A stretch of 32,211 bases of DNA, from contig CANPYG010000029.1 in assembly GCA_947588205.1 (NCBI GenBank), forward strand, positions 1 through 32,211, written 5' to 3'. How positions within the stretch are numbered: position 1 is the stretch's first letter; every line of letters starts with the position of its first letter. A program made the position numbers and the translations under genes. This document shows positions 648-23,582 of the stretch, in pieces. The stretch is from an uncultured Acetatifactor sp. Its GTDB lineage: Bacteria > Bacillota > Clostridia > Lachnospirales > Lachnospiraceae. The notes beneath the pieces are model-generated. The model had not been told where the DNA came from and did no database searches. It worked only from the letters and a program-made list of their open reading frames with translations.

Positions 648-747
648 TTTTCTCTGCCCCGGAGAGGGAAACGAACGTGGAGGATACAGGACCGGATTGG
701 ACAGATTTTTATCTGGGAAAAGAAAAGCTGTGAGGAGGATGGACAAA

Positions 748-1665: not shown

Positions 1666-1933
1666 TAAGTTATCTAAAGTTAAGGAAGCGGGTTTATCTG
1701 TTTTTAATATTTTCTGTGAGGGTAGTTCTTGCTTTTTGTCGGATTGTTGACTTTTGAATAATGGATTTCCTGTAAGAAAGCAGTTTTTTTACATTTGTTT
1801 TTCAACGATCTGTCCTTTTTTCTTTACCATGATTTGCTTTTATTAATTCTTTGTTGCTGCAGCAGAATGCCGTTAGTGTTTTGCTGGACTTTTTCATTGC
1901 ATAAAGGAAGACTATATCGAGGAGGAAGAATAT

Positions 1934-3817: not shown

Positions 3818-3903
3818 TGATTTAAAATGACCAGACTGAGAATGAGGGGGCATTATTCATAAGACCTGACTGAATCAATAGTTTAATATGTTGCCGCAAG
3901 ATA

Positions 3904-3932
3904 TTGCATTTTAACTTTTTATATGTTAAGAT
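3904..3932 (+). promoter_or_regulatory. possible promoter for the LacI-family gene
   Basis: TTGCAT (3904-3909), a 17-base spacer and TAAGAT (3927-3932) lie 38 bases upstream of the regulator's ATG. Each hexamer matches the sigma-A consensus only partly, so this is a tentative call. No clear operator dyad is visible beside it. Confidence 0.35.
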
Positions 3933-3969
3933 ACGATTATTTGAAACGGGCAAAGGAAAGAGGAAAACT

Positions 3970-6216: not shown

Positions 6217-6260
6217 AATAAAATCCTTTCTGAAAATTGTCGGTTTCACTGCATATGCGG

Positions 6261-8646: not shown

Positions 8647-8746
8647 AATAGTCACCATCCCCTATTTTGACTGATATATAAAAAGTAAATTCTTTAAATG
8701 TTTTATGCAGGGATTTGTATAATCAGTGCATACTTCCCATGGAAAA

Positions 8747-8762
8747 GTTAAAAAATATTAAC
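8747..8762. promoter_or_regulatory. candidate operator, copy 1 (GTTAA-N6-TTAAC)
   Basis: GTTAAAAAATATTAAC is a dyad with 5-bp arms, repeated with one mismatch at 8840-8855, 93 bases downstream. Two near-identical dyads upstream of one promoter suggest sites for the same dimeric regulator. The sequence is not a catabolite-control (cre) box. Confidence 0.45.
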
Positions 8763-8792
8763 GCATTGGATGATTTGCGGGCTACAAATGTA

Positions 8793-8810
8793 AATTCCGC
8801 CGGTGGAATT
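8793..8810. promoter_or_regulatory. candidate operator dyad with AATTCC/GGAATT arms
   Basis: AATTCC (8793-8798) and GGAATT (8805-8810) flank GCCGGT, forming an 18-bp near-palindrome with a GC centre, the general shape of a LacI-family site. It lies about 120 bases upstream of the -35 element. Confidence 0.4.
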
Positions 8811-8814
8811 AAGG

Positions 8815-8837
8815 AAAATTTGTTGCCCACAAATTTT
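8815..8837. repeat. AT-rich inverted repeat with 9-bp arms
   Basis: AAAATTTGT (8815-8823) pairs exactly with ACAAATTTT (8829-8837) around TGCCC. It could be a weak terminator for the GH3 transcript, but the stem is AT-rich and the T run is short, so an operator role is equally possible. Confidence 0.5.
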
Positions 8838-8839
8838 TT

Positions 8840-8855
8840 GTTAAAAAATGTTAAC
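8840..8855. promoter_or_regulatory. candidate operator, copy 2 (GTTAA-N6-TTAAC)
   Basis: GTTAAAAAATGTTAAC matches copy 1 at 8747-8762 in 15 of 16 positions. It lies 74 bases upstream of the -35 element of the operon promoter. Confidence 0.45.
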
Positions 8856-8928
8856 ATGAAAATATGACCAAAGTTAAAAGACGCGATGGGTATTATTAAC
8901 GAAAAATGAAAATAAAATAAAAAAATAA

Positions 8929-8957
8929 TTGACAAATTGCTCAAATAAGTATATAGT
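8929..8957 (+). promoter_or_regulatory. strong sigma-A promoter for the transporter operon
   Basis: TTGACA (8929-8934), a 17-base spacer and TATAGT (8952-8957) match consensus at 11 of 12 positions. The predicted start near 8964 gives a leader of about 207 bases before the first gene. Confidence 0.8.
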
Positions 8958-9170
8958 TAATATGCTCGCATCCCGTGAGCTTTGTTCATGTTTGAAATGC
9001 GTCATTAATTGTTGGCAATTACATATCAAATACATACCAAAAACGGTTTTTTGACAGGATTCATGAGGGATGCTATTTGTAAAAAGGTAACAACAGCGGC
9101 TCTGGGGGAGCAGGCGCCGTTGATGTTATAAATATGCGCGGAAGCGCACAATAAAAAAAGGAGGATAAAA

Positions 9171-10697
9171 ATGAAGAAAAAGTCAATCATGAAGTTTTGC
9201 GCTGTCGCTTTGACAGTTGCAATGATGGCTACAATGGTTGCTTGCGGTGGGAATGACGATGGCTCATCCACACCCAGCTCCAGTACGCCCAGCTCCAGCA
9301 CACCTTCCTCAACGCCTGAGGAAACTACTCCCTCTACCGAAGAAGGAGAAACCTATGATTTCGGCGGCCAGGAACTGAAGGTTTGGGGCGCATACTGGGG
9401 CAACCTGAATCCCGAATCCAGCGATTATGCGAAGTATTCCGATATCGCAAAGACTGTTGAAGAGAAGTACAACGTAAAGTTTGTATATTCCGAACCGGAC
9501 GGCTATGACGGATACAATCTGCATGAGCTTATCATTGCCGGTATCACCAACGGCAACGGCGTTCTGGACATCGCTGGTATCGATCCTGTTGGTCTGAGCG
9601 CTCTGATCGCAGGCGGTTATCTTGCGGATATCACAGATTCTTATGAGCAGTTAGAGCTTGGTTCCCTTTATACCGAGGCTGCTACCTGGCAGGGCCATGT
9701 ATATGGATTTACCCATGACAATATCGGTGATACCCATATGCTGATTTACAGCCGTGATTATCTGAATGATATCGGTATGGAAGAGACCCCTACTGACAAG
9801 TTCATGAAGGGTGAGTGGGACTATGACAGCTTTAAGGCTTATCTGACCGAGATGAAGGCTAAGCTTCCTGATGGCATTTATCCGATTGGTCAGCATTATT
9901 TCCAGTGGATCTCCATGGCAGGCGCTGCTAACGGCGTAATCGACATTGATTCCGATGGCAACATCAATTTTGATGATGAGCACTACATCGAGGCTATGGA
10001 GCTTTATGTAGATCTTCAGAATCTGGGCCTGGCTGAGCCCATGGTTCCTACTGACAATGGCGACGGAACCTATTCTTCTTCCTTCACCACTGGTACGGAT
10101 GCGATCGCTCATGGCGGTCAGGGCACCTATGTTATGACCTGCGTTGAGCTGTGGCAGTTAAGCGGTATGGCTGACAGCATCGGTCAGTTCGGTATTGTGC
10201 CTTGGCCTTGGGGCAGCAATGTTACCATCGGACAGAGCGGCACAAAGGGCGACTATAAGACCCTGGATGACAATTACAAGACTGCACACCTTTACTGGAC
10301 TCCCACCGTTGTTATGAGTGATGCAGCAGCAAGAACCGGCATTGACAATGCAACCCTGTTTAAGATCGCCCTTGATTACTATGAGGCATGCGATCCTGTC
10401 AGATTTGCAGCATATCATGAGGCATATCAGGCAGAGCAGAGCGGACAGCAGCCTGTAATCGGCTTTGAAGCAGGCACTGCAAGAAACTTCTGCACAGAGG
10501 ATGATATTGAAGTATACGACTGGATGCATACCAGGGTAGAGTACAGCTGGTCTAAGCCTATGAACGACGGCGGCTATGTAAACACTTGGGAGCTTGCAAA
10601 GAGAAGCATCGCTGTTAAGCTGGATGCGAGGGCCCAGGCTGAGAGCTACAAGCAGGAAGGCCTTGCGGCTTTGAGGGATGCAAAGCTGATCCAGTAG
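9171..10697 (+). CDS. family 1 extracellular sugar-binding lipoprotein of an ABC transporter
   Basis: Cell-surface lipoprotein of 508 residues that should capture the oligosaccharide for the permeases encoded downstream. It has a strong AAAGGAGG site, a basic N-terminus, a hydrophobic core and a lipobox MVAC with Cys25. A Ser/Thr/Pro linker (about 31-57) is built from SSTP units. The mature domain begins DFGGQELKVWGAYWG and shows the family-1 two-lobe pattern: NGNGVLDIAGIDPVGLSALIAGGYLADIT, TWQGHVYGFTHDN, LIYSRDYLNDIGM, and GQFGIVPWPWG. Its codon choice looks strongly biased, consistent with high expression of a binding protein in excess over permease. It is the first gene behind the strong promoter. 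Substrate is not readable. Confidence 0.9.
   Translation: MKKKSIMKFCAVALTVAMMATMVACGGNDDGSSTPSSSTPSSSTPSSTPEETTPSTEEGETYDFGGQELKVWGAYWGNLNPESSDYAKYSDIAKTVEEKYNVKFVYSEPDGYDGYNLHELIIAGITNGNGVLDIAGIDPVGLSALIAGGYLADITDSYEQLELGSLYTEAATWQGHVYGFTHDNIGDTHMLIYSRDYLNDIGMEETPTDKFMKGEWDYDSFKAYLTEMKAKLPDGIYPIGQHYFQWISMAGAANGVIDIDSDGNINFDDEHYIEAMELYVDLQNLGLAEPMVPTDNGDGTYSSSFTTGTDAIAHGGQGTYVMTCVELWQLSGMADSIGQFGIVPWPWGSNVTIGQSGTKGDYKTLDDNYKTAHLYWTPTVVMSDAAARTGIDNATLFKIALDYYEACDPVRFAAYHEAYQAEQSGQQPVIGFEAGTARNFCTEDDIEVYDWMHTRVEYSWSKPMNDGGYVNTWELAKRSIAVKLDARAQAESYKQEGLAALRDAKLIQ
9273..9302 (+). repeat. 15-bp tandem repeat in the lipoprotein linker
   Basis: CCCAGCTCCAGTACG (9273-9287) is followed directly by a near copy (9288-9302), encoding PSSST and PSSSTP units. 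The 15-bp period keeps the frame, so copy number could vary without breaking the gene. Confidence 0.75.
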
Positions 10698-10806
10698 TAA
10701 GAACGGAACTGTTATAAATGAAGTATGACTTTTGACGCTGTGTGGCTGTGGTTCTATGAAAGTAGACTGCAGTCACATAGTGTTAGGAAACGGAAGGGCT
10801 GATGGG

Positions 10807-13764
10807 GTGAAAAAGAAGAAGGATAAGACCCGCATTCGCAATATTGCTATTCTGATTGCGCTCGTGATCGTAGCAGTTGTGGCATACAATATCGCTTCCA
10901 GAGACGATGACGCGGAAACCAGGGAAATGGTGCTCGCAAAGTATCTGAGCTATGAGGATCTGAATGCCGTTACCTACGAGGATTACCTGTCGCAATTTGG
11001 CAAAGCATATGTGGATGATACGGCAGATATTATTACATTGAAAGCTTCTGATTATTCAGATGCGGACATGAATGGTCTGACGGAGACGAATGGCGTTGTC
11101 TGGACACAGGGCGAAGGCTCCATTACTTACGATTTTAATGTAAAGGAGGCTGGTCTGTACTATATTCAGCTTACATATTATCCGGATACGACCAGCACGC
11201 AAAGCATACTGCGCAATGTTTATATCAATGGGAAATTGCCGTTTGATGCTTGCGAGGATATTACGATCAACCGCCTGTGGGTGGACGATAACAAGAATTG
11301 GCTGATGAATACCAATGGCAACCAGGCGGCCCCTACCCAGGTACAGGAAGAAGGACCTGCGGTTGCATATATTAATTCTGCGGACTATGATACCATAGGA
11401 AGCTATATGTTCTATTTTGACAAGGGAAGCAACAAGGTGACGCTGGAATCCGCACAGGCGGCTTTGGGCATCAGTGAGATTGCATTGGTTCCTGCGTCGG
11501 AGCCCCTTTCTTACAGGGAATATTATGAGTATTATGCGGACGAGATGGACGCTGAGATCATGGGCGCCAACAGCATTCAGGGCGGCGCGATTTATATCCA
11601 GGCGGAAGACACCCTGGTGAAGTCCAGTTCTTCCCTCTCTCCGAATAACGACCGTACTTCCGTGGCTACCCAGCCGTATCATGCCACCTATATTATCTAT
11701 AATACGATCGGTGGTTCCAACTGGGCGACTGCAGGACAGACGCTGACCTGGAGCGTGGATGCCCCTCGTGCCGGTCTGTATAGGATTGCGGTCCGTTTCA
11801 AGCAATACCTGAACAGAGGATTTTATTCTGCCCGCTATCTGACAATTAATGGCAGGCTGCCATTTGAAGAAGCGGCTCAGATTGAATTTAATTACGCGCC
11901 TGACTGGCAGATCTCTTATCTGGGGGATGAGAGCGGGGATTATTATTTCTACCTTGAAGAAGGCGAGAATACAATTTCCATGACTGCAACGTTAGGTGAT
12001 CTGGCTGGCGCCGTGGCTTTGGCAAGCCAGAGCGTGGATAACTTGAACAATCTGTATCGTGAGATCACGGCGGTGACAGGTACAGATCCTGACCAGTACC
12101 GCGACTATAGCATTACCACCTATGTGCCAGAGATGGTAGATATCCTGGAGCAGGAGTACACCAGGCTGAATGCGGTGGTAGGAATGTTCGGCGAGGATAT
12201 GGATTCTGCCAACAAGACTTCCCAGCTTGTGGATATGATGAAGGTCATGATCAAGCTGATTAAGAAGGCTGACGATGTGGCGGAGTACCTGAAGGACTTC
12301 AATGATAAGCTGTCCGCCCTTGGCGACTGGATCAATAGCATCAATAATCTTCCGTTGGAAATGGATTATCTGATGGTAACCGGAGACTCCTATACGCTTC
12401 CTGCCGCCAATGGCAGCTTCTTCGCGAGACTGGGGCATACCTGGAATGCGTTTATTGGTTCCTTTTCCAATGATTTCAAGGTTCATGCAGAAGGTTCTGA
12501 CAATGACACGAAGAAGGAGCAGCTGGATGTGTGGGTTACAGTGGATACCCGAAGCCAGTATGACATCATCCAGAAGATGATCAATGCCAACTTTGCAAAT
12601 ACCAATTATGAAGTGAATCTGAGCATGGTAAGTGCGGATACGGTGCTTCCGGCTACCGTTGCAGGGGCCGGTCCTGACGTTGTGCTGCAGTCCAGCTACA
12701 GCCAGCCTACCAACTTCGCTTACCGCGGCGCGGCTTATGACCTCACACAGTTCCCCGATTTCGAAGAGGTGTTTAACAGCCGTTTTGCACCGGATCTGAG
12801 GGCGTTCCTGGAGTATGAGGGCGGCGTCTACGGCATGCCGGATCAGATGTCCTTCCCTGTTATGATTTATCGTAAGGATATCCTGGATGCGCTGAATTTG
12901 GAGGTTCCGGAGACCTGGGAGGATCTGATTGCGTTGATCCCTTATCTGGAAGCCGATAACATGAGCGTATATCTGGCCAGCAATGAGTATAATACACTGG
13001 GCGGCGGTACCAGCTCCACGACCATTCCTGTGAACAGTATCTTCTTATCCATGCTGTATCAGAAGGGTTATGAGCTTTACTCACCGGACCATACCCACAC
13101 CCTCCTGGATAATATTGAAGAGATGCTGGTCTTTAAGGAGTGGACAGAATATTATACCAATCAGGGTCTTGACTACGCTGTAAACCTTGTAACAAGATTC
13201 CGTACAGGTGAGATCCCGGTCCTTGTTGTGGATTATACTTATGTGAATACTCTGACCCTTTCCGCGCCTGAGGTTTCAGGCAAGTGGTCGATCGCCAAGA
13301 TCCCGGGAACACGGAAGGAGGATGGCACGGTTGATCATTCGGCGGCTGCCATGATTGGAACCTGCTTTATCGTCGCTTCCTCTGTGGAAAAGAACGGTAT
13401 GGCGGATGAAGCCTGGGAATTCTTGAAATGGTGGACCAGCGAAGAGACCCAGAGCAACTATTCTGTGGAATTGAAAGCGCAGAACGGTGAAGCTGCGGAA
13501 TTCCCCGTATCCAATGTGAACTCCATTAAGAACGGCGGCCTGAACGCTGAGTTCAAGGAAGTGGTTCTGACCATCCTGGACGACCTGAGGGCGGAGCCCC
13601 AGATCCCCGGCGGTTACATTACAGGACGTGTGATCCGCAATGGCTTTACTTCCGTGGTAACTGAAAATACGGAGCCGGTAGATACACTCTATCTTCTGTT
13701 AGATGATATCAATACCGAGATCAATAACAAACGGACCGAGTTCGGTCTGAATGTAGCAGAGTAG
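10807..13764 (+). CDS. membrane-anchored solute-binding protein fused to two beta-sandwich (CBM-like) modules
   Basis: A large surface protein of about 985 residues. GTG at 10807 is preferred: AAGGG lies 8 bases upstream and it gives a short basic N-terminus (VKKKKDKTRIRN) directly before a membrane helix (about 12-28). The frame is open from an ATG at 10732, which would add 25 unusual residues. Two related beta-sandwich modules follow (about 75-230 and 262-405); both contain AGLY followed later by a TINGRLPF or YINGKLPF strand, so they look like an internal duplication of a carbohydrate-binding fold. Residues 410-540 are helical. The rest (about 570-985) is a family-1 solute-binding domain (VSADTVLPATVAGAGPDVV, GGVYGMPDQMSFPVMIYRKD, EAWEFLKWWTSEETQ). 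There is no lipobox, so the helix is the anchor. Probably a second receptor of the same transporter. Confidence 0.85.
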   Translation: MKKKKDKTRIRNIAILIALVIVAVVAYNIASRDDDAETREMVLAKYLSYEDLNAVTYEDYLSQFGKAYVDDTADIITLKASDYSDADMNGLTETNGVVWTQGEGSITYDFNVKEAGLYYIQLTYYPDTTSTQSILRNVYINGKLPFDACEDITINRLWVDDNKNWLMNTNGNQAAPTQVQEEGPAVAYINSADYDTIGSYMFYFDKGSNKVTLESAQAALGISEIALVPASEPLSYREYYEYYADEMDAEIMGANSIQGGAIYIQAEDTLVKSSSSLSPNNDRTSVATQPYHATYIIYNTIGGSNWATAGQTLTWSVDAPRAGLYRIAVRFKQYLNRGFYSARYLTINGRLPFEEAAQIEFNYAPDWQISYLGDESGDYYFYLEEGENTISMTATLGDLAGAVALASQSVDNLNNLYREITAVTGTDPDQYRDYSITTYVPEMVDILEQEYTRLNAVVGMFGEDMDSANKTSQLVDMMKVMIKLIKKADDVAEYLKDFNDKLSALGDWINSINNLPLEMDYLMVTGDSYTLPAANGSFFARLGHTWNAFIGSFSNDFKVHAEGSDNDTKKEQLDVWVTVDTRSQYDIIQKMINANFANTNYEVNLSMVSADTVLPATVAGAGPDVVLQSSYSQPTNFAYRGAAYDLTQFPDFEEVFNSRFAPDLRAFLEYEGGVYGMPDQMSFPVMIYRKDILDALNLEVPETWEDLIALIPYLEADNMSVYLASNEYNTLGGGTSSTTIPVNSIFLSMLYQKGYELYSPDHTHTLLDNIEEMLVFKEWTEYYTNQGLDYAVNLVTRFRTGEIPVLVVDYTYVNTLTLSAPEVSGKWSIAKIPGTRKEDGTVDHSAAAMIGTCFIVASSVEKNGMADEAWEFLKWWTSEETQSNYSVELKAQNGEAAEFPVSNVNSIKNGGLNAEFKEVVLTILDDLRAEPQIPGGYITGRVIRNGFTSVVTENTEPVDTLYLLLDDINTEINNKRTEFGLNVAE

Positions 13765-13778
13765 AAAGGGGGAGCAAA

Positions 13779-14708
13779 ATGGCTGCAGCTAAAATTTCAA
13801 TGAAAAGAAGAGTACAGTTAACGCTGAGAGATGTGAAGCGAAGCATTCCTCTGTATGTTATGATCGCCCCCTTCATGCTGCTTTTTGCGGTGTTCGTTGT
13901 TTATCCGGTGTTAAAGGCTGTATGGTTCAGCTTCACAGACTATAATGTGCTGGAAGCCGCCAATTTCATCTTCCTTGAAAATTACAGGAAGCTTTTCCTG
14001 GATGACAGCACCTTTATTACCGCCATTAAGAACACCTTCATTATTGCAGTAATTGTAGGACCCGGTGGATATATCATGTCCTTCCTGCTCGCATGGATGA
14101 TCAATGAGCTGCCTCATAAGGTAGGAAGTGTCCTTACCGTGATCTTCTATGCCCCAAGTATGGCGGGTAGTGCTATTATTTCGATATTTACGATGATTTT
14201 TTCCAACGACAGCAACGGTTTTTTGAATGCATTCCTGATGAATATGGGAATCATCAAGGAACCCGTCCTATGGCTTTCGGATGCAGATGTGGTCATGGTT
14301 GTCGTAATCCTGGCCTCCCTGTGGACCAGCCTCGGCGTTGGATTCCTGTCCTTTGTGGCAGGCATTAAAGGCGTGGATGAAGCCCAGTATGAAGCCGGCG
14401 CAATTGACGGCATCAGAAACCGCTGGCAGGAACTGTGGTACGTCACCCTGCCCAACATGAAGCCTCAGCTTCTGTTCGGCGCCGTCATGACCATTACAGG
14501 TTCTTTGTCTGTTGGTAGCATCGGCGATTCCCTGGTTGGCTTTCCCAGCCCCAACTATGCAACCCATACCATCGTCAACCACCTGAACGATTACGGTTCC
14601 ATCCGTATGGAGATGGGTTACGCTTCCGCAATCGCGGTAATCCTGTTCCTGATTATGATCGTATGTAACATGCTGATTCAGAAGCTGCTTCGTAAAGTAG
14701 GAACGTAA
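13779..14708 (+). CDS. sugar ABC transporter permease, MalF/UgpA type (first pair)
   Basis: Inner-membrane permease of 309 residues with about six membrane helices, the first at about 26-48 (IPLYVMIAPFMLLFAVFVVYP). The EAA loop that docks the ATPase is present as EAGAIDGIRNRWQELWYVTLP. The gene follows the binding-protein fusion by 14 bases with a strong AAGGGGGAG site. It pairs with the next gene to form a heterodimeric channel. No ATPase gene occurs in the window, so a shared sugar ATPase is expected to be supplied from elsewhere. Confidence 0.93.
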   Translation: MAAAKISMKRRVQLTLRDVKRSIPLYVMIAPFMLLFAVFVVYPVLKAVWFSFTDYNVLEAANFIFLENYRKLFLDDSTFITAIKNTFIIAVIVGPGGYIMSFLLAWMINELPHKVGSVLTVIFYAPSMAGSAIISIFTMIFSNDSNGFLNAFLMNMGIIKEPVLWLSDADVVMVVVILASLWTSLGVGFLSFVAGIKGVDEAQYEAGAIDGIRNRWQELWYVTLPNMKPQLLFGAVMTITGSLSVGSIGDSLVGFPSPNYATHTIVNHLNDYGSIRMEMGYASAIAVILFLIMIVCNMLIQKLLRKVGT

Positions 14709-14729
14709 TCAGAGAGAGGAAGGGTGAAT

Positions 14730-15656
14730 ATGGAAACATTAAAAAGATTGTATTATCAACATATTGCAAAGAAAAAGGCCAATGACTTCACACCGTTTGT
14801 GAAGAAATCCCAGAGAAGCTTCTGGGGCAACGTAATCCTGGGTCTGTTCCTTCTTCTCATGGGTGTTATGTTCTTCTTCCCGGTGGTGTTTATGGTGAGT
14901 AACTCTATAAAGCCGATGAACGAGATGTTCATTTTCCCGCCCAGAATCATTGTGTCCAATCCCACGTTGGATAATTACCGTGATTTTATCAACGTATTGG
15001 CCAATACGGTGGTGCCGGTGACGAAGTCTCTGTTTAATTCCGCTTTTGTAGTGGTGGTTGGCTCCGTGGGACATATTGTGATCGCCTCATTGTGCGCTTA
15101 TCCTCTGGCGAAGTACAGATTCCCGGGCTCGGCCTTTTTCAATCAGCTGATCGTGTATTCACTGATGTTCAATGCCACAGTTACAATGATCCCTAACTTC
15201 TTAACCATTGCGGGACTTGGAATGCTGGATACCCAGTGGGCTATCATTATTCCTGGATTCGCATCCACCCTGGGCCTGTACCTGATGAAGAACTTCATGG
15301 AACAGATTCCGGACAGCCTGATGGAGGCAGCCCAGATTGATGGGGCCGGTTACGTCCGCATCCACTTTACCATTGTAATGCCGGTGACAAAGCCCGCCTT
15401 GGTAACTGCATTTATTCTGGTGTTCCAGAGCTTCTGGACCAATACCGGTGATAAATTCATCTATACCGAGGCGAAAAAGGGATTTGCGTATGTGGTAGGA
15501 CAGCTGGCGAGCGGCAGGATCAGCGGCGTAGGAAGTTCCTATGCCGGTATTTCTGCAGCATCTGCCGTAATCATGTTCCTCGTACCACTGCTTGTGTTCC
15601 TGTTTATGCAGAATAACGTAGTGTCAACGATGGCAACATCTGGTATGAAAGAATAA
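14730..15656 (+). CDS. sugar ABC transporter permease, MalG/UgpE type (first pair)
   Basis: Partner permease of 308 residues. Start 14730 has GAGGAAGG about 6 bases upstream; an in-frame GTG at 14724 overlaps that site and is less likely. Helices are visible near residues 31-53 and in the core SVGHIVIASLCAYPLAKYRFPG, a MalG-family hallmark. The EAA loop reads EAAQIDGAGYVRIHFTIVMP. It follows its partner by 21 bases and precedes the propeller-Yip1 gene by 10. Confidence 0.93.
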   Translation: METLKRLYYQHIAKKKANDFTPFVKKSQRSFWGNVILGLFLLLMGVMFFFPVVFMVSNSIKPMNEMFIFPPRIIVSNPTLDNYRDFINVLANTVVPVTKSLFNSAFVVVVGSVGHIVIASLCAYPLAKYRFPGSAFFNQLIVYSLMFNATVTMIPNFLTIAGLGMLDTQWAIIIPGFASTLGLYLMKNFMEQIPDSLMEAAQIDGAGYVRIHFTIVMPVTKPALVTAFILVFQSFWTNTGDKFIYTEAKKGFAYVVGQLASGRISGVGSSYAGISAASAVIMFLVPLLVFLFMQNNVVSTMATSGMKE

Positions 15657-15666
15657 GAGGTGGCGT

Positions 15667-17745
15667 ATGAGAAAATCAAATAAGATTTGGAGTAAGTGCC
15701 TTATCGGGCTTGCTCTTATGATCAGTGCCATCCTTGGATTTGGCACGGTGTCGTTAGCGTCCGAGACCTACATGTACGATATCTGGGGCAATGTCATCGC
15801 CGCTCCGGATGCTTATAAACTGGAACGGACAATCTACGCATCGGATCTGGGACTTCCTAATATGTCGACCACTTCCGGCGTTTTCTATCGGAATGATAAG
15901 GTATATCTCATCATGAACGGATATATTGTGATCACCGATAAGGAATTTGAAAATGTGAGGACCATTACCGACTTCGTGAAGGAGGATGGCAGCGCAGGCA
16001 AAATAAACTCTCCCAGCGGAATCTATGTGACAGAAGACGAGCATATTTATATCTGCGAACCGACTCAGGGAGAAATCATCGAGTTTGATGAAAAGCTTCA
16101 ATATGTGAGGACAATAGGCGATCCCGGCTGTACGGGCCTGACGGTTACCTATCGTCCCAGCAGAATTGCCGTGGACAGCGTAGGCCGTATCTATGTACTG
16201 GTACAGAACTGTTACGAGGGCTTTGCAGAGTTGAACCCGGAAGGCCAGTTCAACCGTTATGTGGGTGCAACAGAGGTTATGTATTCCGCATGGGATCTGT
16301 TCTGGAGATCTTTGATGACGGAGGAGCAGCTTTCCCGAAGCGAGATGTGGCTGCCTACAACCTACAGTGATCTTGCTATTGACCAGAACGGATTTATCTT
16401 CGCCAGTGTGGCGGACAGCGAGACCGCACAGCCGATCAAAAAGCTGAATTCCTCAGGTGAGGACGTTATGACCACAGGAGAATTCATCAATTATCCTATG
16501 GGCGACTATGTGGGAGAGACCTCTCTTTCCAACCTGACCCGTATTGCCGTTGCGGACGATGGAAGATTCGCAGTGCTCGATACCAACTATTCCAGAATCT
16601 TTGTCTACAGCGGAGACGGCTACCTGATGTATGAGCTGGGCGGTTCCGGAAATGCAAAGGGTCTGCTGAGTTCCCCGACCAACATTTGTTTCATGGACGA
16701 CAAGATCCTTGTGACGGATATCGTGTATGGTTCTGTCGAGATTTACATGCCCACTACTTATGGCGGACTGATCAATTCCGCACTGGAAGCCCAGTCTAAC
16801 TATGATTATGAGTTGGCGGCAGATTACTGGCAGCAGGTACTGGATATCAACAGCAGCTTCTATTATGCGAACCTTGGGCTTGGTAAATACCAGCTGCGCA
16901 ACGGGCAGTATGAAGAAGCGATGAACAACTTCTTCCTGGGTGGAGACAGATCCTATTATTCCAGCGCCTATAAGCAGGTATCGGGAGAATGGTTTGATAA
17001 TAACTTCAGCAGGATCGTGGTAATTGCGGTGATCCTACTGGTGCTCATTGCAGCCTGGAGAATTTACAGACATTTTAAACCCGCGCAGCCGAAAGATACC
17101 AAGCTCCGCAGGGCATGGAACAAATTTAAGTTCGTGGCGTTCAAATGGCCCCTGTATGTGTTGTCCAGTCCATTTAAGGCCTTTGATGATGTAAAGTATT
17201 ATGGGGATGGTTCTCTGGTATTCAGTATCGTGGTGATCATCCTTTACGGCTGGATCAGTCTGATTAAGTACAGGTATACCGGCTTCCTGGTAAGTTTTGT
17301 GGATATCACCTATGTGAATGTGCCCCTGATTATCGGCAGCGCACTCCTCCCCTATGTGGTATTTATTATGGGCAACTGGGCGGTAGGCGTCCTGCTATCC
17401 GGTAAAGGAAAGGCGGTACATGTGATAAAGGTCGTTGGTTATTCCCTTTATCCCGCCTGCTGGCTGAATCTGGCGGGCACGATCCTGTCCAACTATGTAT
17501 CGGAGGATGAGGCGGCGCTTGTAAGCGCATTGTTTGTCTTCGGTATGGTGCTGTTCTTCTTCTATATGTTTATCGGCACCATCATGGTACATCAATATAC
17601 ATTTACCAAGAACGTGGCGACGTTGCTTTTGTCAGTAGTGGCGATGCTGATCATCTTCTTTATACTGATGCTGTTGGCAACCCTGTTGTCACAATTCGTC
17701 AATGATGTGACCGAGATCATAAGAGAAATTCGGTTATTAATCTAA
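15667..17745 (+). CDS. secreted NHL-type beta-propeller, TPR-like segment and Yip1 membrane domain in one protein
   Basis: A 692-residue membrane protein. Residues 1-32 are a signal peptide (KCLIGLALMISAILGFG, cleavage near SLAS). About 50-360 is an NHL-like propeller of repeated blades (INSPSGIYVTEDEHIYICEP, RPSRIAVDSVGRIYVL, LSNLTRIAVADDGRFAVLD, SSPTNICFMDDKILVTD). Residues 365-440 look like TPR helices (YELAADYWQQVLDINSS, ANLGLGKYQLRNGQYEEA). A membrane helix at 449-466 is followed by a basic segment (KDTKLRRAWNKFKF) and a five-helix Yip1-type domain (about 500-690). The propeller and TPR would be outside the cell. Yip1-propeller proteins recur beside sugar transporter genes in Firmicutes, as far as I recall, but no function is established. 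It may support assembly or anchoring of the import complex. Confidence 0.82.
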   Translation: MRKSNKIWSKCLIGLALMISAILGFGTVSLASETYMYDIWGNVIAAPDAYKLERTIYASDLGLPNMSTTSGVFYRNDKVYLIMNGYIVITDKEFENVRTITDFVKEDGSAGKINSPSGIYVTEDEHIYICEPTQGEIIEFDEKLQYVRTIGDPGCTGLTVTYRPSRIAVDSVGRIYVLVQNCYEGFAELNPEGQFNRYVGATEVMYSAWDLFWRSLMTEEQLSRSEMWLPTTYSDLAIDQNGFIFASVADSETAQPIKKLNSSGEDVMTTGEFINYPMGDYVGETSLSNLTRIAVADDGRFAVLDTNYSRIFVYSGDGYLMYELGGSGNAKGLLSSPTNICFMDDKILVTDIVYGSVEIYMPTTYGGLINSALEAQSNYDYELAADYWQQVLDINSSFYYANLGLGKYQLRNGQYEEAMNNFFLGGDRSYYSSAYKQVSGEWFDNNFSRIVVIAVILLVLIAAWRIYRHFKPAQPKDTKLRRAWNKFKFVAFKWPLYVLSSPFKAFDDVKYYGDGSLVFSIVVIILYGWISLIKYRYTGFLVSFVDITYVNVPLIIGSALLPYVVFIMGNWAVGVLLSGKGKAVHVIKVVGYSLYPACWLNLAGTILSNYVSEDEAALVSALFVFGMVLFFFYMFIGTIMVHQYTFTKNVATLLLSVVAMLIIFFILMLLATLLSQFVNDVTEIIREIRLLI

Positions 17746-17762
17746 GGAAGGAGGCAGAGAAA

Positions 17763-20339
17763 ATGAGAAAATATAAAAAATTGATTTACCCTATTCTGAT
17801 GATTCTTTGCCTGAGCCTTCTGGCAGGCTGTGGTTCTTCCGACGAAAAGACAACTCAGGAGGAACAGGCGGAAAGCTATTGGGAGAACCAGAGCTATGAT
17901 ACCCTGAGCGGCTCTGATTTTATCGAGGTTGGAAAAGGCGGCAAGATGCAGCTGCTGCTGAATCCGGAGAGCGGTACGATACGCTGGATGAATACGGAAA
18001 CGGGAGCTTTTCATGATTCCAATATGTCATATGACGAGAATCTGGCAAATAAGACAAATGGAGAGCGTTCCGATCTGTTGGTGACGTATTACAACGGTAC
18101 CCTGAAAAATAACCTGTTATATTCCAAAACCAATAGGTATGATTCCTACAGCATGTCATCCAGCCGTGGGCAGATTGCCTATCAGTTAATTGATAACGGG
18201 GTACGGGTTGTTTATACGCTGGGCGATGACTCGGTGACCTACCAGTATTTCCCGAAGCGTATTTCTGAAGAGAGATTTGAAGACCTGGTATTGCAGTACC
18301 TGGATGACAGGCAGAGAAATACGATGACGACAACGCACTATACCCAGCTGGCGTCAGGCGACTATTATCGTAACTTCAATACCAATGACCAAAACAAGAT
18401 AGGTCCTCTTGCGATCAAAGAGGTATACAACATGTTCTATGAGGTAGGACACTATACCATTGATGACCTGATGGAGGATGTGGATAATCTTGTAGCTGCG
18501 GGACTGTGCGACGACACAGACTATCCCAGCAACCTGAAGATTGTTGTTGCGGTTGATTATTATCTGGACGGGGAAGAGCTTGTAGTAAGGGTGGATCCTA
18601 CAAAGATTGAAACGGATGCAAGCCATCCTATCTACAGATTGGAGCTTTTGCCTTATTTCCTTACCAGTGCAACCGATAACGATGCAGAGGAAGGCTATAT
18701 GTTCATCCCGGATGACAGTGGAGCGCTGATTTATCTGGACAGCACCAAGACCAGGGAATACCACTATTCGGCGCCCTTCTATGGGGGAGACCGCCTGAAC
18801 GGTGCAACTGTCTATAACAGCGTGGATAACGAGATGAAAATGCCGGTATTTGGTATGAAGACTTCCGACAGCACGGTATTCTGCATCATTGAAAACGGTG
18901 CGGAAGTCGCTTCCCTGGATGCCTATGTGTCATACACGGATATGTCAGAACCTTTCTCCAAGATGAAGCTGACCTTTGACATTCAGTCTCAGATGCAGAT
19001 TGAAGCAGGAAGCGGTCTGGGCGGCACCTATATGCTGTACCGCGCCTCCGATGACGTTTACGATGAGGACATTTCCCTGCGTTATTTCTGGCTGGAGGAT
19101 GAAGCCGGTTATGTGGAGATGGCCAAGTGCTACGCTAATTACCTCACGGAAAAGGGAGCCCTGACTGCGGAGACGGCTGAAACACAGGCACCCTTCTATG
19201 TGGAAGTGCTGGGCACTACGGATAAGACACAGTTTATGCTTGGTATTCCTTATGACGGCAAGCAGGTGGTGACTTCCTTCAAGGAGGCCCAGACCATTCT
19301 GAACGAACTTACGGATGCAGGAGTGAAGAATATCAAGATGATCTACAGCGGCATGGCGAATGGAGGAATGAACCAGAGATCCTTATCCTCCGGCGTGAAG
19401 TTTGCTTCCGGTCTGGGTGGAAGCTCCGCATGGAACAGTCTCAAGAAATATGCGGACAGCATAGGAGCCCAGATCTTCCCGAACCTGCAGCTGCAGACGG
19501 CTTATACCAGATCTGATCTTGCCAATTCCGTGGTAGCATGGAATATCAGCAATGAGAGGGCACAGATTTATTCCTTTAATCCTGTTGAGAAGAAGATTGA
19601 TGAGGAAAACGATTATCCGCTTTTCATTATCAGTCCCAACTATCTTGACAAGTATTTATCAAAAGTGAAAAGCACCGTCAGCAGCAAGCTTGGCGTGAGT
19701 ACGATTGCTTCCAGCGATCTGTATTCCTTCATACCTACAAATTACAAGGATCAGCAGGTATCCATCTCAACTGGTGAGGATATTCTGAACAATGCTGTTG
19801 CAAGCCTTACAGATGGAATGACCTTAATGCTTTCCAACCCGATCAGTGACGCATACGGATACAGCAATTATCTGACGGATATTCCAAGCACCAACAGCGG
19901 CATGAGGGTTCTGGATGCTTCAGTTCCGTTTATGCAGCTCGTGCTGGATGGATACAAGACCTATTCGACAGAGTCGCTGAATCGTGAGAGCACGGATGTA
20001 TATGAGAACTTTATGCGTGCGATCGAGAGCAACAGTGTGCCGAAGTTTACCTTCACTTACCGCGACAGCTCTTTATTATCCGATACGGAGCAGGAAAACT
20101 ACTTTGCAGTAGACTACAATTACTGGAAAGACAAGATCGGCGACTATTATAAGGAGTATGAACAGGTCTATAACCGCCTGCAGAATGCGACGGTGGTAAG
20201 TCATGAATTGTACAACCGTGACGATGACCTGAGGATTGTTACCTATTCCAATGGTGTTAAGATTTACTTTAACTACTCCGATCTTGAAGAAAATATCGGT
20301 GGAGTAACGGTACCGGCTTTCAGCTATGTAATGGAGTAA
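17763..20339 (+). CDS. DUF5696-type surface lipoprotein with possible glycosidase-like barrel
   Basis: An 858-residue lipoprotein behind a strong GGAAGGAGG site. The signal ends in lipobox LAGC (Cys23). Residues about 55-460 are beta-rich (KMQLLLNPESGTIRWMN, YFPKRI, GYMFIPDDSGALIYLDS, FYGGDRLNG), and about 475-770 alternate helix and strand like a TIM barrel (FKEAQTILNELTDAGVKNIK followed by MIYSGMANGGMNQR, then GAQIFPNLQLQTAY). A C-terminal beta region (about 810-858) closes the protein. I recognise the overall pattern as DUF5696, a family without proven activity; the barrel and sandwich order resembles large glycoside hydrolases, which is inference. It lies between the Yip1 protein and the second permease pair, so it probably binds or trims substrate at the cell surface before uptake. 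Confidence 0.75.
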   Translation: MRKYKKLIYPILMILCLSLLAGCGSSDEKTTQEEQAESYWENQSYDTLSGSDFIEVGKGGKMQLLLNPESGTIRWMNTETGAFHDSNMSYDENLANKTNGERSDLLVTYYNGTLKNNLLYSKTNRYDSYSMSSSRGQIAYQLIDNGVRVVYTLGDDSVTYQYFPKRISEERFEDLVLQYLDDRQRNTMTTTHYTQLASGDYYRNFNTNDQNKIGPLAIKEVYNMFYEVGHYTIDDLMEDVDNLVAAGLCDDTDYPSNLKIVVAVDYYLDGEELVVRVDPTKIETDASHPIYRLELLPYFLTSATDNDAEEGYMFIPDDSGALIYLDSTKTREYHYSAPFYGGDRLNGATVYNSVDNEMKMPVFGMKTSDSTVFCIIENGAEVASLDAYVSYTDMSEPFSKMKLTFDIQSQMQIEAGSGLGGTYMLYRASDDVYDEDISLRYFWLEDEAGYVEMAKCYANYLTEKGALTAETAETQAPFYVEVLGTTDKTQFMLGIPYDGKQVVTSFKEAQTILNELTDAGVKNIKMIYSGMANGGMNQRSLSSGVKFASGLGGSSAWNSLKKYADSIGAQIFPNLQLQTAYTRSDLANSVVAWNISNERAQIYSFNPVEKKIDEENDYPLFIISPNYLDKYLSKVKSTVSSKLGVSTIASSDLYSFIPTNYKDQQVSISTGEDILNNAVASLTDGMTLMLSNPISDAYGYSNYLTDIPSTNSGMRVLDASVPFMQLVLDGYKTYSTESLNRESTDVYENFMRAIESNSVPKFTFTYRDSSLLSDTEQENYFAVDYNYWKDKIGDYYKEYEQVYNRLQNATVVSHELYNRDDDLRIVTYSNGVKIYFNYSDLEENIGGVTVPAFSYVME

Positions 20340-20349
20340 AGGAGGAGCA

Positions 20350-21306
20350 ATGATGAAAAAAGAAAAGAAAGCGGCAGTTGGTAAAAAGCCGTCCCTTTCG
20401 TCGTTGTATAAGAGAATGGACTTCTCCAAAAAGACGGCGCTCTGGGGTATTATATTCCTGCTTCCATGGCTCTTTGGTCTGATTTTCTTCTTCCTGAGGC
20501 CATTGGCGAATACCCTGTGGTATTCTCTGTGCAATATGCAGATTGTGGATGGTAAATTTACCGGAACCTTCATTGGAATTGAAAACTACAAATGGGTACT
20601 GACTGTAAATCCTGATTATACCAGAATGCTGGGCGAATCCTTCATCAACATGGCAACACAGGTTCCGTTTCAGATTTTCCTTTCCTTGTTTATCGCTATT
20701 CTTTTAAATGGTGAGTACAGGGGAAGAGGTTTCTTCCGTGCCGTGTTTGTTATCCCGATCATATTGGCAACGGGAATCGCTACATTCAGCCTGAGCGAGA
20801 CCTCAGTTGCCGAGGAAGTGACAGAATCGGTGGTAAATATGGATTGGCTGGTGGATCTGGTGGTGAATTCCGGTATCCCTTCCGAGTTGACTTCAACGTT
20901 GGTCACTTATGTGAATAATATTTTTGATGTTGTAACCACCTGTGGCGTACAGATTTTGCTTTTCCTGGCAGGACTGCAGGCAATTTCCCCTTCTCTTTAT
21001 GAGGTGGCGAAGATAGAAGGATGTACTACTTTTGAAACCTTCTGTAAGATAACATTGCCCATGGTATCCCCTACCATCCTGGTCTGCCTGGTCTACAGTA
21101 TTTCAGAATCCTTTGCAAACGCTCAGGTTACCAGCGGTACAAGTACAGTGGCTTTTTCAGATTATATCCACAGCGTTACCTTCAGTGGTGCGTCTGAATA
21201 CTTCGGTTACAGTGCTGCAATGAGCTTTATCTACTTTATTGCGACCCTTGTAACAATTGGTGTGGTCAGCGGCATCGTATCAAAGGGGGTATTCTATTAT
21301 GACTAG
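20350..21306 (+). CDS. sugar ABC transporter permease, MalF/UgpA type (second pair)
   Basis: Permease of 318 residues. A basic N-terminus is followed by a helix at about 33-54 (ALWGIIFLLPWLFGLIFFFL), a large loop and further helices. The EAA loop reads EVAKIEGCTTFETFCKITLP. GGAGGAG at 20341-20347 lies close to the ATG at 20350; the second in-frame ATG at 20353 has better spacing and may be the real start. A long insertion between helices (about 140-190) is unlike the first-pair permease. It overlaps the next gene by 8 bases. Confidence 0.92.
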   Translation: MMKKEKKAAVGKKPSLSSLYKRMDFSKKTALWGIIFLLPWLFGLIFFFLRPLANTLWYSLCNMQIVDGKFTGTFIGIENYKWVLTVNPDYTRMLGESFINMATQVPFQIFLSLFIAILLNGEYRGRGFFRAVFVIPIILATGIATFSLSETSVAEEVTESVVNMDWLVDLVVNSGIPSELTSTLVTYVNNIFDVVTTCGVQILLFLAGLQAISPSLYEVAKIEGCTTFETFCKITLPMVSPTILVCLVYSISESFANAQVTSGTSTVAFSDYIHSVTFSGASEYFGYSAAMSFIYFIATLVTIGVVSGIVSKGVFYYD

Positions 21307-22354
21307 AAAAGAAAGAATGGCGAAAGCCGAAGAAATGGCGGGTATCAGCTTTTGGGTCGACTTGCGGAAGGGCCGTTTAACGAAATATGCGATTCAGAAG
21401 CAGGTGAAGAGATTCCTGGTATCCCTGTTCCGTTATCTCCTTTTGGTCTGCCTCGGTTTTATTATTATCACACCCTTGTGGAAGCTGGCGAAGGATGCAT
21501 TTACAGATCCTTCTGTGCTGAGCAATAAGTCCAGCATATGGATTCCCCAGAAGTTCTCTACGATTTTCGTGGAAATGGCATGGTCCAAAAATCTTCTGAA
21601 CTATTTGCCCAGCCTTGGGTACACCCTGTTCAACACGCTGGTGTTGACCGTACTGCAGGTGTTGTCGTCTGGTCTTGCGGCTTATTCCTTTGCCAGATTG
21701 AAATTCAAAGGAAGCGGGCTTTTGTTCGGCGGCGTGATCCTCACCATTGTCGTGCCTTCTGATTGTATCATGCTCGCACAATATGCGGCTTTTCTGAATT
21801 TCGATATTTTTGGGATTGTCGGTTTGATCACGGGACACGGCATAAACCTTTTGGGCAATCCTTTGTCGCAGTTTATTCTTGCGGCATCCGGAATGGGCCT
21901 TAAGAGCGGTCTGTATATTTATTTCCTGCGTCAGGCTGTAAAGGGTCTGCCGATTTCCGTAGAGGAAGCTGCCTTTGTGGATGGCGCCGGATTCTTAAGA
22001 ACATTTTTCAGCGTTGTGGTTCCCAGTATGTCAGGTTCTATTCTGACGGTGTCCGTATTGAGCTTCCTGTGGAACTATACCGATACTTATTATGTCAGCC
22101 TTCTGAATGCCAATACAAAGCAGCTGGCATACAATTATGCAAGACTTCAGGGAAATATCCGTTGGAGTATTTCGGATGCCCTCAAGGCGAATGAGGTATG
22201 GATGAGTCAGATTGACGCAACGAACCCTTATGCGCAGAATTCTATGATTTCCGCATGTGCCCTGCTGATCATCCTGCCCCTGTTCATCGCATACTGTTTC
22301 GTACAGAAGCGGTTCGTGCAGGGTGCTGCAAGAAGCGGCCTTGGCGGAGATTGA
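21299..22354 (+). CDS. sugar ABC transporter permease, MalG/UgpE type (second pair)
   Basis: Permease of 351 residues. Start 21299 (MTRKERMA) lies inside the end of the previous gene, with AAGGGGG 9 bases upstream, so the two are translationally coupled; the frame is open from 21257, but that would only add residues read inside the upstream gene. The cytoplasmic N-terminus is longer than usual (about 40 residues). Core motifs are SSGLAAYSFARLKFKGSG and the EAA loop EEAAFVDGAGFLRTFFSVVVP. It is the last gene before a hairpin terminator at 22405. Two full permease pairs in one operon imply two channels or exchangeable partners. Confidence 0.93.
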   Translation: MTRKERMAKAEEMAGISFWVDLRKGRLTKYAIQKQVKRFLVSLFRYLLLVCLGFIIITPLWKLAKDAFTDPSVLSNKSSIWIPQKFSTIFVEMAWSKNLLNYLPSLGYTLFNTLVLTVLQVLSSGLAAYSFARLKFKGSGLLFGGVILTIVVPSDCIMLAQYAAFLNFDIFGIVGLITGHGINLLGNPLSQFILAASGMGLKSGLYIYFLRQAVKGLPISVEEAAFVDGAGFLRTFFSVVVPSMSGSILTVSVLSFLWNYTDTYYVSLLNANTKQLAYNYARLQGNIRWSISDALKANEVWMSQIDATNPYAQNSMISACALLIILPLFIAYCFVQKRFVQGAARSGLGGD

Positions 22355-22376
22355 TGTCTGGTTCAGAGTAACAAAA

Positions 22377-22398
22377 TTGCAAAGCATTTGGTTTGCAA
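22377..22398 (+). repeat. small inverted repeat after the second permease pair
   Basis: TTGCAAA (22377-22383) pairs exactly with TTTGCAA (22392-22398) around 8 bases. It lies just before the terminator stem and may be a folding part of the same 3' end or a protein-binding site. Confidence 0.5.
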
Positions 22399-22404
22399 TA
22401 CAAT

Positions 22405-22449
22405 GGGCGGGGTCAGGATCAAACGTCCTGGCTCCGCCCTATTTATTTG
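22405..22449 (+). terminator. intrinsic terminator at the end of the transporter operon
   Basis: A 14-bp stem pairs 22405-22418 with 22426-22439 with two G-U pairs (GGGCGGGGTC against GGCTCCGCCC) around a 7-base loop, followed by TATTTATTT. It sits 50 bases after the last permease and 60 before the GH130-type gene. Its imperfect U tract suggests that some read-through into the phosphorylase gene is possible. Confidence 0.82.
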
Positions 22450-22509
22450 ATTACAACGGTGCGTGCAGAGCTCAGCATCCGTTGATTAACAGGAAACGGA
22501 GAATATTGG

Positions 22510-23502
22510 ATGAGCAGAATTATTGGAAAATCCTTGCCCGGTATGCCCTGGCAGGACAGACCTGAGGGCTGTGATAAGGTAATCTGGCGTTATTCGGAAA
22601 ATCCGATCATCGGACGGCATGATATTCCCATTGCAAACAGTATTTTTAACAGTGCAGTGGTTCCTTTTGGCGATGGGTATGCAGGTGTATTCCGCTGCGA
22701 CAGCCTGTCAGTCAGCATGGATATCTTTGCGGGTTTCAGCAAGGATGCGGTTCACTGGGAAATCAACCATGAGCCGATCACCTTCCTTGGAGAAGATCCG
22801 GAGGTAATAAAGCGTGAATACCGTTATGATCCGAGGGTGACCTGGATAGAGGACCGGTACTATATCACCTGGTGCAATGGCTATCATGGTCCTACCATAG
22901 GTGTGGCGTATACCTTTGATTTTAAAACCTTTTATCAGATGGAGAACGCATTCCTTCCTTATAATAGGAACGGTGTATTATTTCCCCGTAAGATCAACGG
23001 ACGTTATATGATGCTGTCGAGGCCGAGTGATACAGGCCATACACCTTTCGGCGATATTTTTTTGAGTCAAAGTCCTGATATGGAATATTGGGGGCACCAC
23101 CGCTTTGTGATGGGAACGGTTCCGGGTGATTTGTCGGCATGGCAGTCCATGAAGATCGGTCCAGGACCATGTCCTATAGAGACGGATGAGGGGTGGCTGT
23201 TGATTTACCATGGTGTACTGCGCACCTGCAGCGGATATGTATACCGCATGGGATGTGCGCTTCTGGATCTGGAAGAGCCATGGAAGGTGAAGATGCGTTC
23301 CAGGATGTACCTTCTGGCGCCGGAAATGCTTTATGAGCAGGCGGGGGACGTTCCTAATGTGGTGTTCCCGTGTGCGGCGCTTGCCGATGCTGACAGCGGC
23401 AGGATCGCTGTTTATTATGGATGTGCCGATACCGTGACCGGACTCGCATTTACTACAGTGGATTATCTGATGGAATGGATGAAAAAATATCCGCTGGGTT
23501 AA
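22510..23502 (+). CDS. GH130-type beta-mannoside phosphorylase/hydrolase
   Basis: A 330-residue cytoplasmic five-bladed-propeller enzyme; GH130 members mostly phosphorolyse beta-mannosides to alpha-mannose-1-phosphate. CGGAG lies 8 bases before the ATG. Family landmarks are [37 protein letters not shown] with the likely general acid D107, [43 protein letters not shown] and the C-terminal [19 protein letters not shown]. The phosphate-contact blocks (SRPSD, the HG pair in IYHGV) appear intact, which favours phosphorylase over hydrolase, but I cannot assign a subfamily. With nanE, the sialate lyase and GH20 nearby, a mannosyl-GlcNAc substrate from an N-glycan core is attractive; plant beta-mannan is the alternative. 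Confidence 0.85.
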
Positions 23503-23582
23503 TCTTGTATAGAGTTTGTTATGGTGGACGCGGAAACAAGTTTTTTCAGGCAGCGGTTATAACGAGGGTATGGTGATAATGG

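Follow-up and report, generated by a model that had tools for sequence, protein, structure and literature searches.

Why should one operon encode two receptors and two permease pairs, with two large surface proteins placed between the pairs, when the textbook importer has one receptor and two permeases? This question is raised by a locus of an uncultured Acetatifactor sp. (contig CANPYG010000029.1), the whole analysed stretch of which, 32,211 nucleotides in length, is referred to here as the window. At positions 9171-22354, the + strand carries eight genes, encoding two solute-binding proteins (SBP1 and SBP2), the permeases P1 and P2, an NHL-Yip1 protein, a DUF5696 protein, and the permeases P3 and P4. 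Open reading frames (ORFs), Pfam matches and the profiles of relatives agree with the initial annotation, which had described an import operon with doubled receptors and permease pairs, a Yip1-propeller protein and a DUF5696 lipoprotein. We favour, with moderate confidence, the reading that the locus is a conserved double glycan importer, in which two predicted ABC importers of the CUT1 type are kept together in one gene set.

Conservation of the gene order

Loci were scored for the order SBP2-P1-P2-NHL-Yip1-DUF5696-P3-P4 by six-frame profile searches. The sample comprised 5 loci from the genome that carries the window (the own genome), 20 from its family, 80 from a named genome collection (of 265 confirmed), 20 from the order and 40 from the class and phylum. 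The family, order and class/phylum loci were hand-picked for score and spread, not drawn at random. The phylum was taken to be Bacillota from the named relatives, and the distribution was sampled within it. The full order was found in 135 of the 165 loci, or 132 of the 162 distinct ones, as three genes occur twice. By group, these are 5/5 own-genome, 19/20 family, 67/80 named-collection, 17/20 order and 27/40 class and phylum loci. Own-genome and named-collection loci match partly by construction, because the profiles were built from them, and the named-collection set leans to one clade, from which the query alignment came. Loci from the order, class and phylum are independent of profile building, except L197, which is the same gene as L099. 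The own genome, a metagenome-assembled genome (MAG) of 2.8 Mb, has five DUF5696 genes, all of them (5/5) in the full order.

Where flanking DNA of at least 8.5 kb before and at least 2.5 kb after was available, 89 of 96 loci have the full order; the stricter figure is 89/99, obtained by adding L154, L195 and L201, which have about 8.1 kb before and truly miss SBP2-P1-P2 there. Four of the seven misses with enough flank (L190, L209, L210 and L211) are short DUF5696-like proteins without a module. In the others, the two halves of the module are swapped (L206), P3 is split in two (L046), or SBP2 and P1 are missing ahead of P2 (L167). The 23 misses without enough flank include 13 named-collection loci at contig ends and one further short protein (L191).

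The DUF5696 cut-off was exceeded in 32/100 genomes of the family, 31/146 of the order, 68/245 of the class and 26/299 of the phylum, and in 0/14 control genomes. A profile of the SBP2 N-terminal region gave strong matches (E < 1e-30) in 28 of the 299 phylum genomes, and all DUF5696-positive phylum genomes (26/26) also hold this region. At strong score, 271 of the 299 hold neither; the two 299-genome samples were taken as identical because their genome handles agree. G577 and G626 have a strong SBP2 N-terminal match without DUF5696 above the cut-off, and the contigs that carry their SBP2 genes measure 3.8 and 4.3 kb; weak matches to the region were found in five more genomes. A chance cluster is rejected in view of the recurrent order and of this co-occurrence at the genome level. 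Conservation of the module is far above chance, and the neighbourhood search that the initial annotation had proposed, for which chance-level conservation would have spoken against a unit, speaks for one.

Two side observations concern the distribution. In one family (G482, G528, G566, G600 and G629), frames of about 250-560 residues resemble portions of the N-terminal region of SBP2 and possibly represent a free lectin family. G022, a second species of the genus of the window, has neither a DUF5696 nor an SBP2 N-terminal match; the module is therefore patchy even within the genus. No description of this gene set was found in the literature searched, in which DUF5696 itself is unmentioned, and this is not proof of absence.

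Two separable importer blocks

The doubling consists of two separable importers, block A (SBP2-P1-P2) and block B (SBP1-P3-P4 with NHL-Yip1 and DUF5696), as evidenced by loci in which the two occur apart or in swapped order. Block B is found without an adjoining block A in L195, L196 and L201, in which NHL-Yip1-DUF5696-P3-P4 is followed by an SBP_bac_1 protein; the upstream DNA of L196 covers 4.2 kb only, and L201 has an ordinary transporter farther along. L154 retains only DUF5696-P3-P4, with a solute-binding protein three genes on. Block A stands alone in 4 of the 14 regions fetched for SBP2 (L258, L260, L261 and L262). These four loci perhaps represent one event, because all belong to one family and three have similar neighbours. 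Block B precedes block A in L206 and L257. In G536 and G608, A alone and B alone are both present within the same genome, and the two blocks may therefore still cooperate in trans.

Permeases and the ATPase

All four permeases have a BPD_transp_1 domain in Pfam, although the P4 match, at 25.9 bits, is slightly below the cut-off of 26.4. In a tree comprising 85 permeases (17 P1, 17 P2, 16 P3, 16 P4 and 19 others of the own genome), each position forms one clade, with supports of 100/99 for P1, P2 and P4 and 93/92, the weakest, for P3. P1 and P3 lie on one side of the tree, opposite P2 and P4. As each permease position is a clade of its own and the blocks separate, a single importer with spare permeases is rejected. 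The EAA loop, at which the ATPase docks, is kept in P1-P4: across the own-genome and named-collection sets (63 to 74 sequences per position), the Glu is conserved in at least 98% and the Gly in 100% of sequences.

A Pfam scan of 22 window ORFs revealed no ABC ATPase, in agreement with the initial annotation. The own genome contains 42 BPD_transp_1 matches, 19 of which fall inside the five modules, and a single OB_MalK match, an orphan outside the operon whose gene runs off the contig end. This orphan, an MsmX-like ATPase, probably powers both importers. A single orphan OB_MalK ATPase fits multitask ATPases such as MsmX (PMC7658222). By sequence, a MalF/MalG-type pair with the EAA loop, a sugar-binding protein and an ATPase of the MalK/MsmX type in the genome are present, as expected of a CUT1 system.

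The DUF5696 protein and the GH129 fold

The AlphaFold2 (AF2) model of the DUF5696 protein, obtained from a 77-sequence alignment, has a pLDDT of 80.4 and a pTM of 0.80. Its best Foldseek matches in the PDB are GH129 enzymes (5opq, 1.8e-30, TMt 0.69; NagBb 5wzp, 5.4e-22), followed by GH101 and GH36-type structures. Profile comparisons by hhalign point in the same direction, both with true GH129 relatives (95.2%, 2.6e-8) and with a broader DUF5696 set against GH129 (98.4%, 6.4e-15). The protein is thus predicted to have the GH129 fold, and DUF5696 as an isolated unknown is rejected on both lines of evidence.

Catalytic columns were read from a joint MAFFT alignment that included intermediates. 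They carry some doubt, because hhalign places the catalytic region a few residues off from MAFFT. The two columns are an Asp and a Glu, which we take to be the nucleophile and the acid/base as in NagBb; the title of 8rzk, which mentions a D486N mutant, fits this assignment. In the window protein, the Asp is kept (D652) and the Glu is changed (S691), and the five own-genome copies read D/S, D/K, D/N, D/S and D/N. The Asp-Glu pair is present in 5/5 GH129 rows and in 5/5 distinct short relatives that stand alone (one gene occurs twice among their 6 rows), but in only 3/157 distinct module copies. The second column is Glu in 11/157 module copies and otherwise N, S, D, K, Q and others. Moreover, His/Asp residues of the second and third strands of GH129 are mostly replaced. 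The DUF5696 protein is probably a glycan-binding pseudoenzyme, as judged from these columns; what the initial annotation had listed as a protein of unknown function is now a GH129-like one in which the catalytic pair is mostly lost.

Two further groups of proteins are related to DUF5696. The short DUF5696-like proteins of L190, L191, L209, L210 and L211 (L032 is the L211 gene), about 565-600 residues in length, lack the module and have both GH129 catalytic residues; from their sequences, they look like active GH129-like enzymes of an as yet unassigned group. In the family sample, L033-L038 match the DUF5696 model and look like relatives of the GH129 alpha-N-acetylgalactosaminidase. L034 matches NagBb at 7.1e-271, all of L033-L038 align to L034 at 54-74% identity, and in the four that were scanned the DUF5696 model overlaps GH101, GH129 and DUF6259.

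Solute-binding proteins and the NHL-TPR-Yip1 protein

SBP1 has a lipobox near residue 25, identified by eye, and no match to a solute-binding protein family in Pfam at E 0.1. A profile of three SBP1 relatives matches solved sugar-binding proteins (4qrz, 1.3e-8; 6rjy, 1.5e-7), and the SBP1 profile aligns with SBP_bac_1-type relatives (hhalign 99.9%, 4.9e-33). In the own genome, BLAST detects SBP1 in the window copy and in L006 and L009. The candidate in L008, a 572-residue lipoprotein located after P4, is weak, as the similarity covers the signal region only and Pfam gives no solute-binding protein match; in L007, the SBP1 position is cut by the contig start.

SBP2 matches SBP_bac_8 (5.4e-19, at 624-911 of the ORF) and also SBP_bac_1. 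Its AF2 model (pLDDT 80.2, pTM 0.66) consists of an N-terminal membrane helix, two beta-sandwich domains, a helical bundle and a C-terminal sugar-binding-protein domain. The best PDB matches by Foldseek, 5ysf (1.4e-17) and 4r9f (3.8e-17), are sugar-binding proteins with sophoro-oligosaccharide and mannobiose. Among the N-terminal halves of ten SBP2 proteins, CBM35 matches fall below the cut-off, and GH115_C matches exceed it in three.

The 692-residue NHL protein of the window has NHL, a weak TPR match and no Yip1 match at 0.01; Yip1 is seen in relatives only. Its hydrophobic stretches are at 6-33, at 442-470 and from 512 on. Among 41 ORFs of relatives, NHL was found in 22, Yip1 (PF04893) in 20, with a best value of 2.9e-18, and one TPR model in up to 16. 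NHL and Yip1 are separate genes in 3 of the 5 own-genome copies; over the 165 loci, they are fused in 28 and split in 129.

Organization of the locus and flanking genes

Features of the locus are listed in Table 1. The gap ahead of SBP2 is 34 bases if counted from the start of the ORF and 109 bases if counted from the GTG; from P1 onward, the remaining gaps are 14, 15, 10, 17, 10 and -8 bases. The spacing given in the initial annotation, from an 8-base overlap to about 110 bases, is therefore correct. The promoter noted there is present, at 11 of 12 consensus positions; in the region as a whole, promoter-like sites stay at the level of shuffled sequences (24 versus 25.4), and terminator-like sites exceed it (21 versus 12.1). 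Tight packing, the promoter and the 15-pair hairpin together make a single transcript for the eight genes likely. Searched against NCBIfam, the eight module proteins and a further two relatives gave no match above a curated cut-off, all scores being far below.

Table 1. Positions of the promoter, genes and hairpin of the module and of the adjacent phosphorylase gene in the window.
Feature	Position	Strand	Basis and remarks
Sigma-70-like promoter, TTGACA-17-TATAGT	8929..8957	+	11/12 consensus positions; best within 8600-23700
SBP1, 508-residue lipoprotein, sugar-binding protein	9171..10697	+	Profile of relatives versus solved structures; hhalign
SBP2, about 985 residues	10807..13764	+	SBP_bac_8/1; ORF opens at 10732, GTG at 10807 is the likelier start
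P1, MalF-side permease, block A	13779..14708	+	BPD_transp_1 2.7e-12; EAA loop; own tree clade
P2, MalG-side permease, block A	14724..15656	+	BPD_transp_1 2.7e-9; EAA loop; own tree clade
NHL propeller - TPR - transmembrane - Yip1-like membrane protein, 692 residues	15667..17745	+	NHL 7.2e-9; domains of relatives
DUF5696 lipoprotein, 858 residues, predicted GH129-like fold	17763..20339	+	PF18952 1.2e-137; AF2 and Foldseek; hhalign
P3, MalF-side permease, block B	20350..21306	+	BPD_transp_1 2.1e-10; EAA loop; own tree clade
P4, MalG-side permease, block B	21299..22354	+	BPD_transp_1 9.6e-6; EAA loop; own tree clade; overlaps P3 by 8 bases
Strong terminator-like hairpin closing the unit	22405..22439	+	15-pair stem, 10 G-C pairs, T-rich tail
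GH130 mannoside phosphorylase, beyond the hairpin	22510..23502	+	PF04041 9.6e-71

Upstream of the module (3-4986), the window encodes NanE, a protein of the dihydrodipicolinate-synthase family, a GH20 protein and a LacI regulator; these genes point to the use of host amino sugars. A CBM9-like protein (5152-6249, - strand) is located between the LacI and GH3 genes. Downstream, two HlyD-like proteins, one of which has a lipoyl match below the cut-off, and a 935-residue FtsX-type permease are encoded in a row (23583-29853), with no ATPase among the scanned ORFs beside them. At 30037-31945, an AbiEi-like antitoxin gene is followed by a gene for a 279-residue protein without a Pfam match; PADLOC, run on five neighbour genes including these two, returned nothing at 0.001.

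Neighbouring enzymes and putative cargo

Neighbours were counted as relatives in which the catalytic or binding domain is covered. In the 80 named-collection loci, GH26 was found in 51, CBM65 in 52 and GH130 in 24, and of the 54 named loci that extend over more than 9.5 kb before DUF5696, 44 have GH26. The corresponding counts are 3, 7 and 6 of the 20 family loci and 0, 0 and 2 of the 5 own-genome loci. For instance, the genes that flank the L062 module encode two lipoproteins, one with GH26+CBM35 and one with CBM65, as well as DUF624, SBP1, a regulator of the LacI type (by eye) and GH130. As these families are concentrated in the named clade, beta-mannan oligosaccharides are probably the cargo in this one large, mostly Lachnospiraceae clade only, and other copies would carry other cargo. 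RNA-seq of C. phytofermentans on galactomannan exists (PMC4230839).

The GH130 protein of the window, which matches UhgbMP (4udg) at 3.9e-154 and a beta-1,4-mannooligosaccharide phosphorylase (5ayd) at 1.5e-141, is a probable cytoplasmic partner of the importer. The cargo of the window copy may be a mannosyl-GlcNAc or mannoside glycan, which is a guess. Beta-1,2-mannan was rejected as the substrate, the GH130 being far closer to UhgbMP and the beta-1,4 phosphorylase than to beta-1,2 enzymes; the beta-1,2 cluster of Thermoanaerobacter, with one solute-binding protein, two permeases and two ATPases (PMC4264767), also counts against it. The module copy on C40 has a GH130 gene 91% identical to that of the window, a fucosidase gene and a BNR sialidase-like gene. 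The GH130 genes at 22510-23502 of the window and at 14939-15943 of L006 are 91% identical, as compared with only about 29-54% for the adjoining module proteins; this suggests that the phosphorylase alone was recently duplicated or converted.

Proposed mechanism and alternative readings

In the double glycan importer proposed here, the sandwich domains of SBP2, on a membrane anchor at the outer face, probably catch glycan chains. The membrane-tethered DUF5696 protein probably binds the ends of glycans without cleaving them, and the NHL-TPR-Yip1 protein probably holds it beside the P3/P4 pair. Both permease pairs would be driven by the single MsmX-like ATPase encoded elsewhere. A fuller version, which we put forward tentatively and regard as unlikely in its entirety, is a phylum-wide relay, in which an importer whose receptor has lectin-like domains works with a second importer; the latter would be guided by a pseudo-glycosidase of the GH129 type that reads chain ends and is held by NHL-TPR-Yip1 over P3/P4, and the two importers would share one ATPase.

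Several observations weigh against the double importer with a binding DUF5696 protein. The ATPase count comes from a MAG that is 92.9% complete, and the ATPase gene is truncated by a contig end. SBP1 of the window is too divergent for Pfam. The Foldseek matches came without a residue-level alignment, and the catalytic columns were read from sequence alignment; the Asp is kept in 114/157 copies, both columns are acidic in 12/157, and acids occur at both columns within one column either way in 49/160. Residual or different catalysis is therefore possible. GH26, CBM65 and GH130 are found beside 0/20 order loci and beside 4, 0 and 1 of the 40 class and phylum loci. Finally, either block is found in places without its counterpart alongside.

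This last point, together with the acidic columns and a fold that is that of an enzyme, is the strength of a first alternative, according to which two ordinary, independent importers share an operon since two sugars, e.g., the long and short chains of one glycan, co-occur, and are fed by DUF5696 acting as an active surface glycosidase of changed mechanism. We consider this possible and doubt it. The Glu column is not Glu in all but 11 of the copies, the second- and third-strand His/Asp residues are mostly replaced, the SBP2 N-terminal region accompanies DUF5696 in every positive phylum genome, and the phylum-wide order exceeds what convenience would need.

The same order and co-occurrence would also suit one obligate machine, in which all four permeases form a single assembly that hands a polymer on from A to B. 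The four permease clades branch similarly (by eye), and separated A and B blocks are found in the same genomes (G536 and G608). This second alternative appears improbable, given that A stands alone in four loci, that B lacks an adjoining A in three, and that L154 retains only DUF5696-P3-P4 and a nearby solute-binding protein. In a third alternative, the NHL-TPR-Yip1 and DUF5696 proteins make up a complex that senses glycans or processes the envelope, with regulation or remodelling as its output and the permeases as mere neighbours. The link of the two proteins to transport is a predicted one, and TPR and propeller domains often serve to bind proteins. This alternative is very unlikely, as the two stay with P3/P4 and a solute-binding protein where A is missing (L195, L196 and L201) and no regulatory output domain was seen in the window proteins, although RsgI_N was found in 6 of 41 ORFs of relatives at 0.01.

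The double glycan importer remains our preferred reading, and the interpretation given in the initial annotation is partly supported. The doubling noted there stands, refined into two separable blocks, and the proposed capture of glycans finds a link in one clade, through the GH26+CBM35, CBM65 and GH130 neighbours. If the reading is true, many Bacillota, from gut Lachnospiraceae to plant-degrading thermophiles such as Thermoanaerobacterium (L099), use an importer wider than the textbook one. DUF5696 would gain a fold and a likely role, and bacterial Yip1-domain proteins a setting. The five copies of the own genome and the half modules that stand alone would provide natural experiments, and in the mannan-linked clade the importer would be a direct candidate for the means by which these bacteria compete for dietary mannan.

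Comparison with known systems

The likeness to the Bacteroides Sus system drawn in the initial annotation holds in logic only, i.e., surface capture and import. The parts differ, as the module is made of ABC components in a presumed Gram-positive envelope, and the Pfam scan of 22 window ORFs showed no SusC or SusD family. GH129 enzymes, namely the alpha-N-acetylgalactosaminidase NagBb and the anhydrogalactosidase ZgGH129, share with DUF5696 the predicted fold along most of its length and profile homology; in contrast to these, DUF5696 has a changed Glu column in the window and in most relatives, is membrane-tethered and is linked to transporter genes.

The mannan locus of Roseburia intestinalis, as presented in the main text of PMC6385246, has a surface GH26, a solute-binding protein, permeases and GH130 phosphorylases, as do the surroundings of the module in the mannan-linked clade. 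It differs in having one solute-binding protein and two permeases, and the term "DUF" does not occur in that main text. Likewise, neither "DUF" nor "permease" occurs in the main text of a 2026 paper on beta-mannan in Bacillota (PMC13278490).

Further close counterparts are CUT1 importers that borrow a multitask ATPase, such as the MsmX systems of Bacillus (PMC7658222). Common to both are a solute-binding protein with a MalF/MalG pair, EAA loops, the lack of an ATPase in the operon and one orphan MsmX-like ATPase. In contrast to these systems, the module has two sets per unit, a giant solute-binding protein with extra sandwich domains, and the NHL-TPR-Yip1 and DUF5696 proteins.

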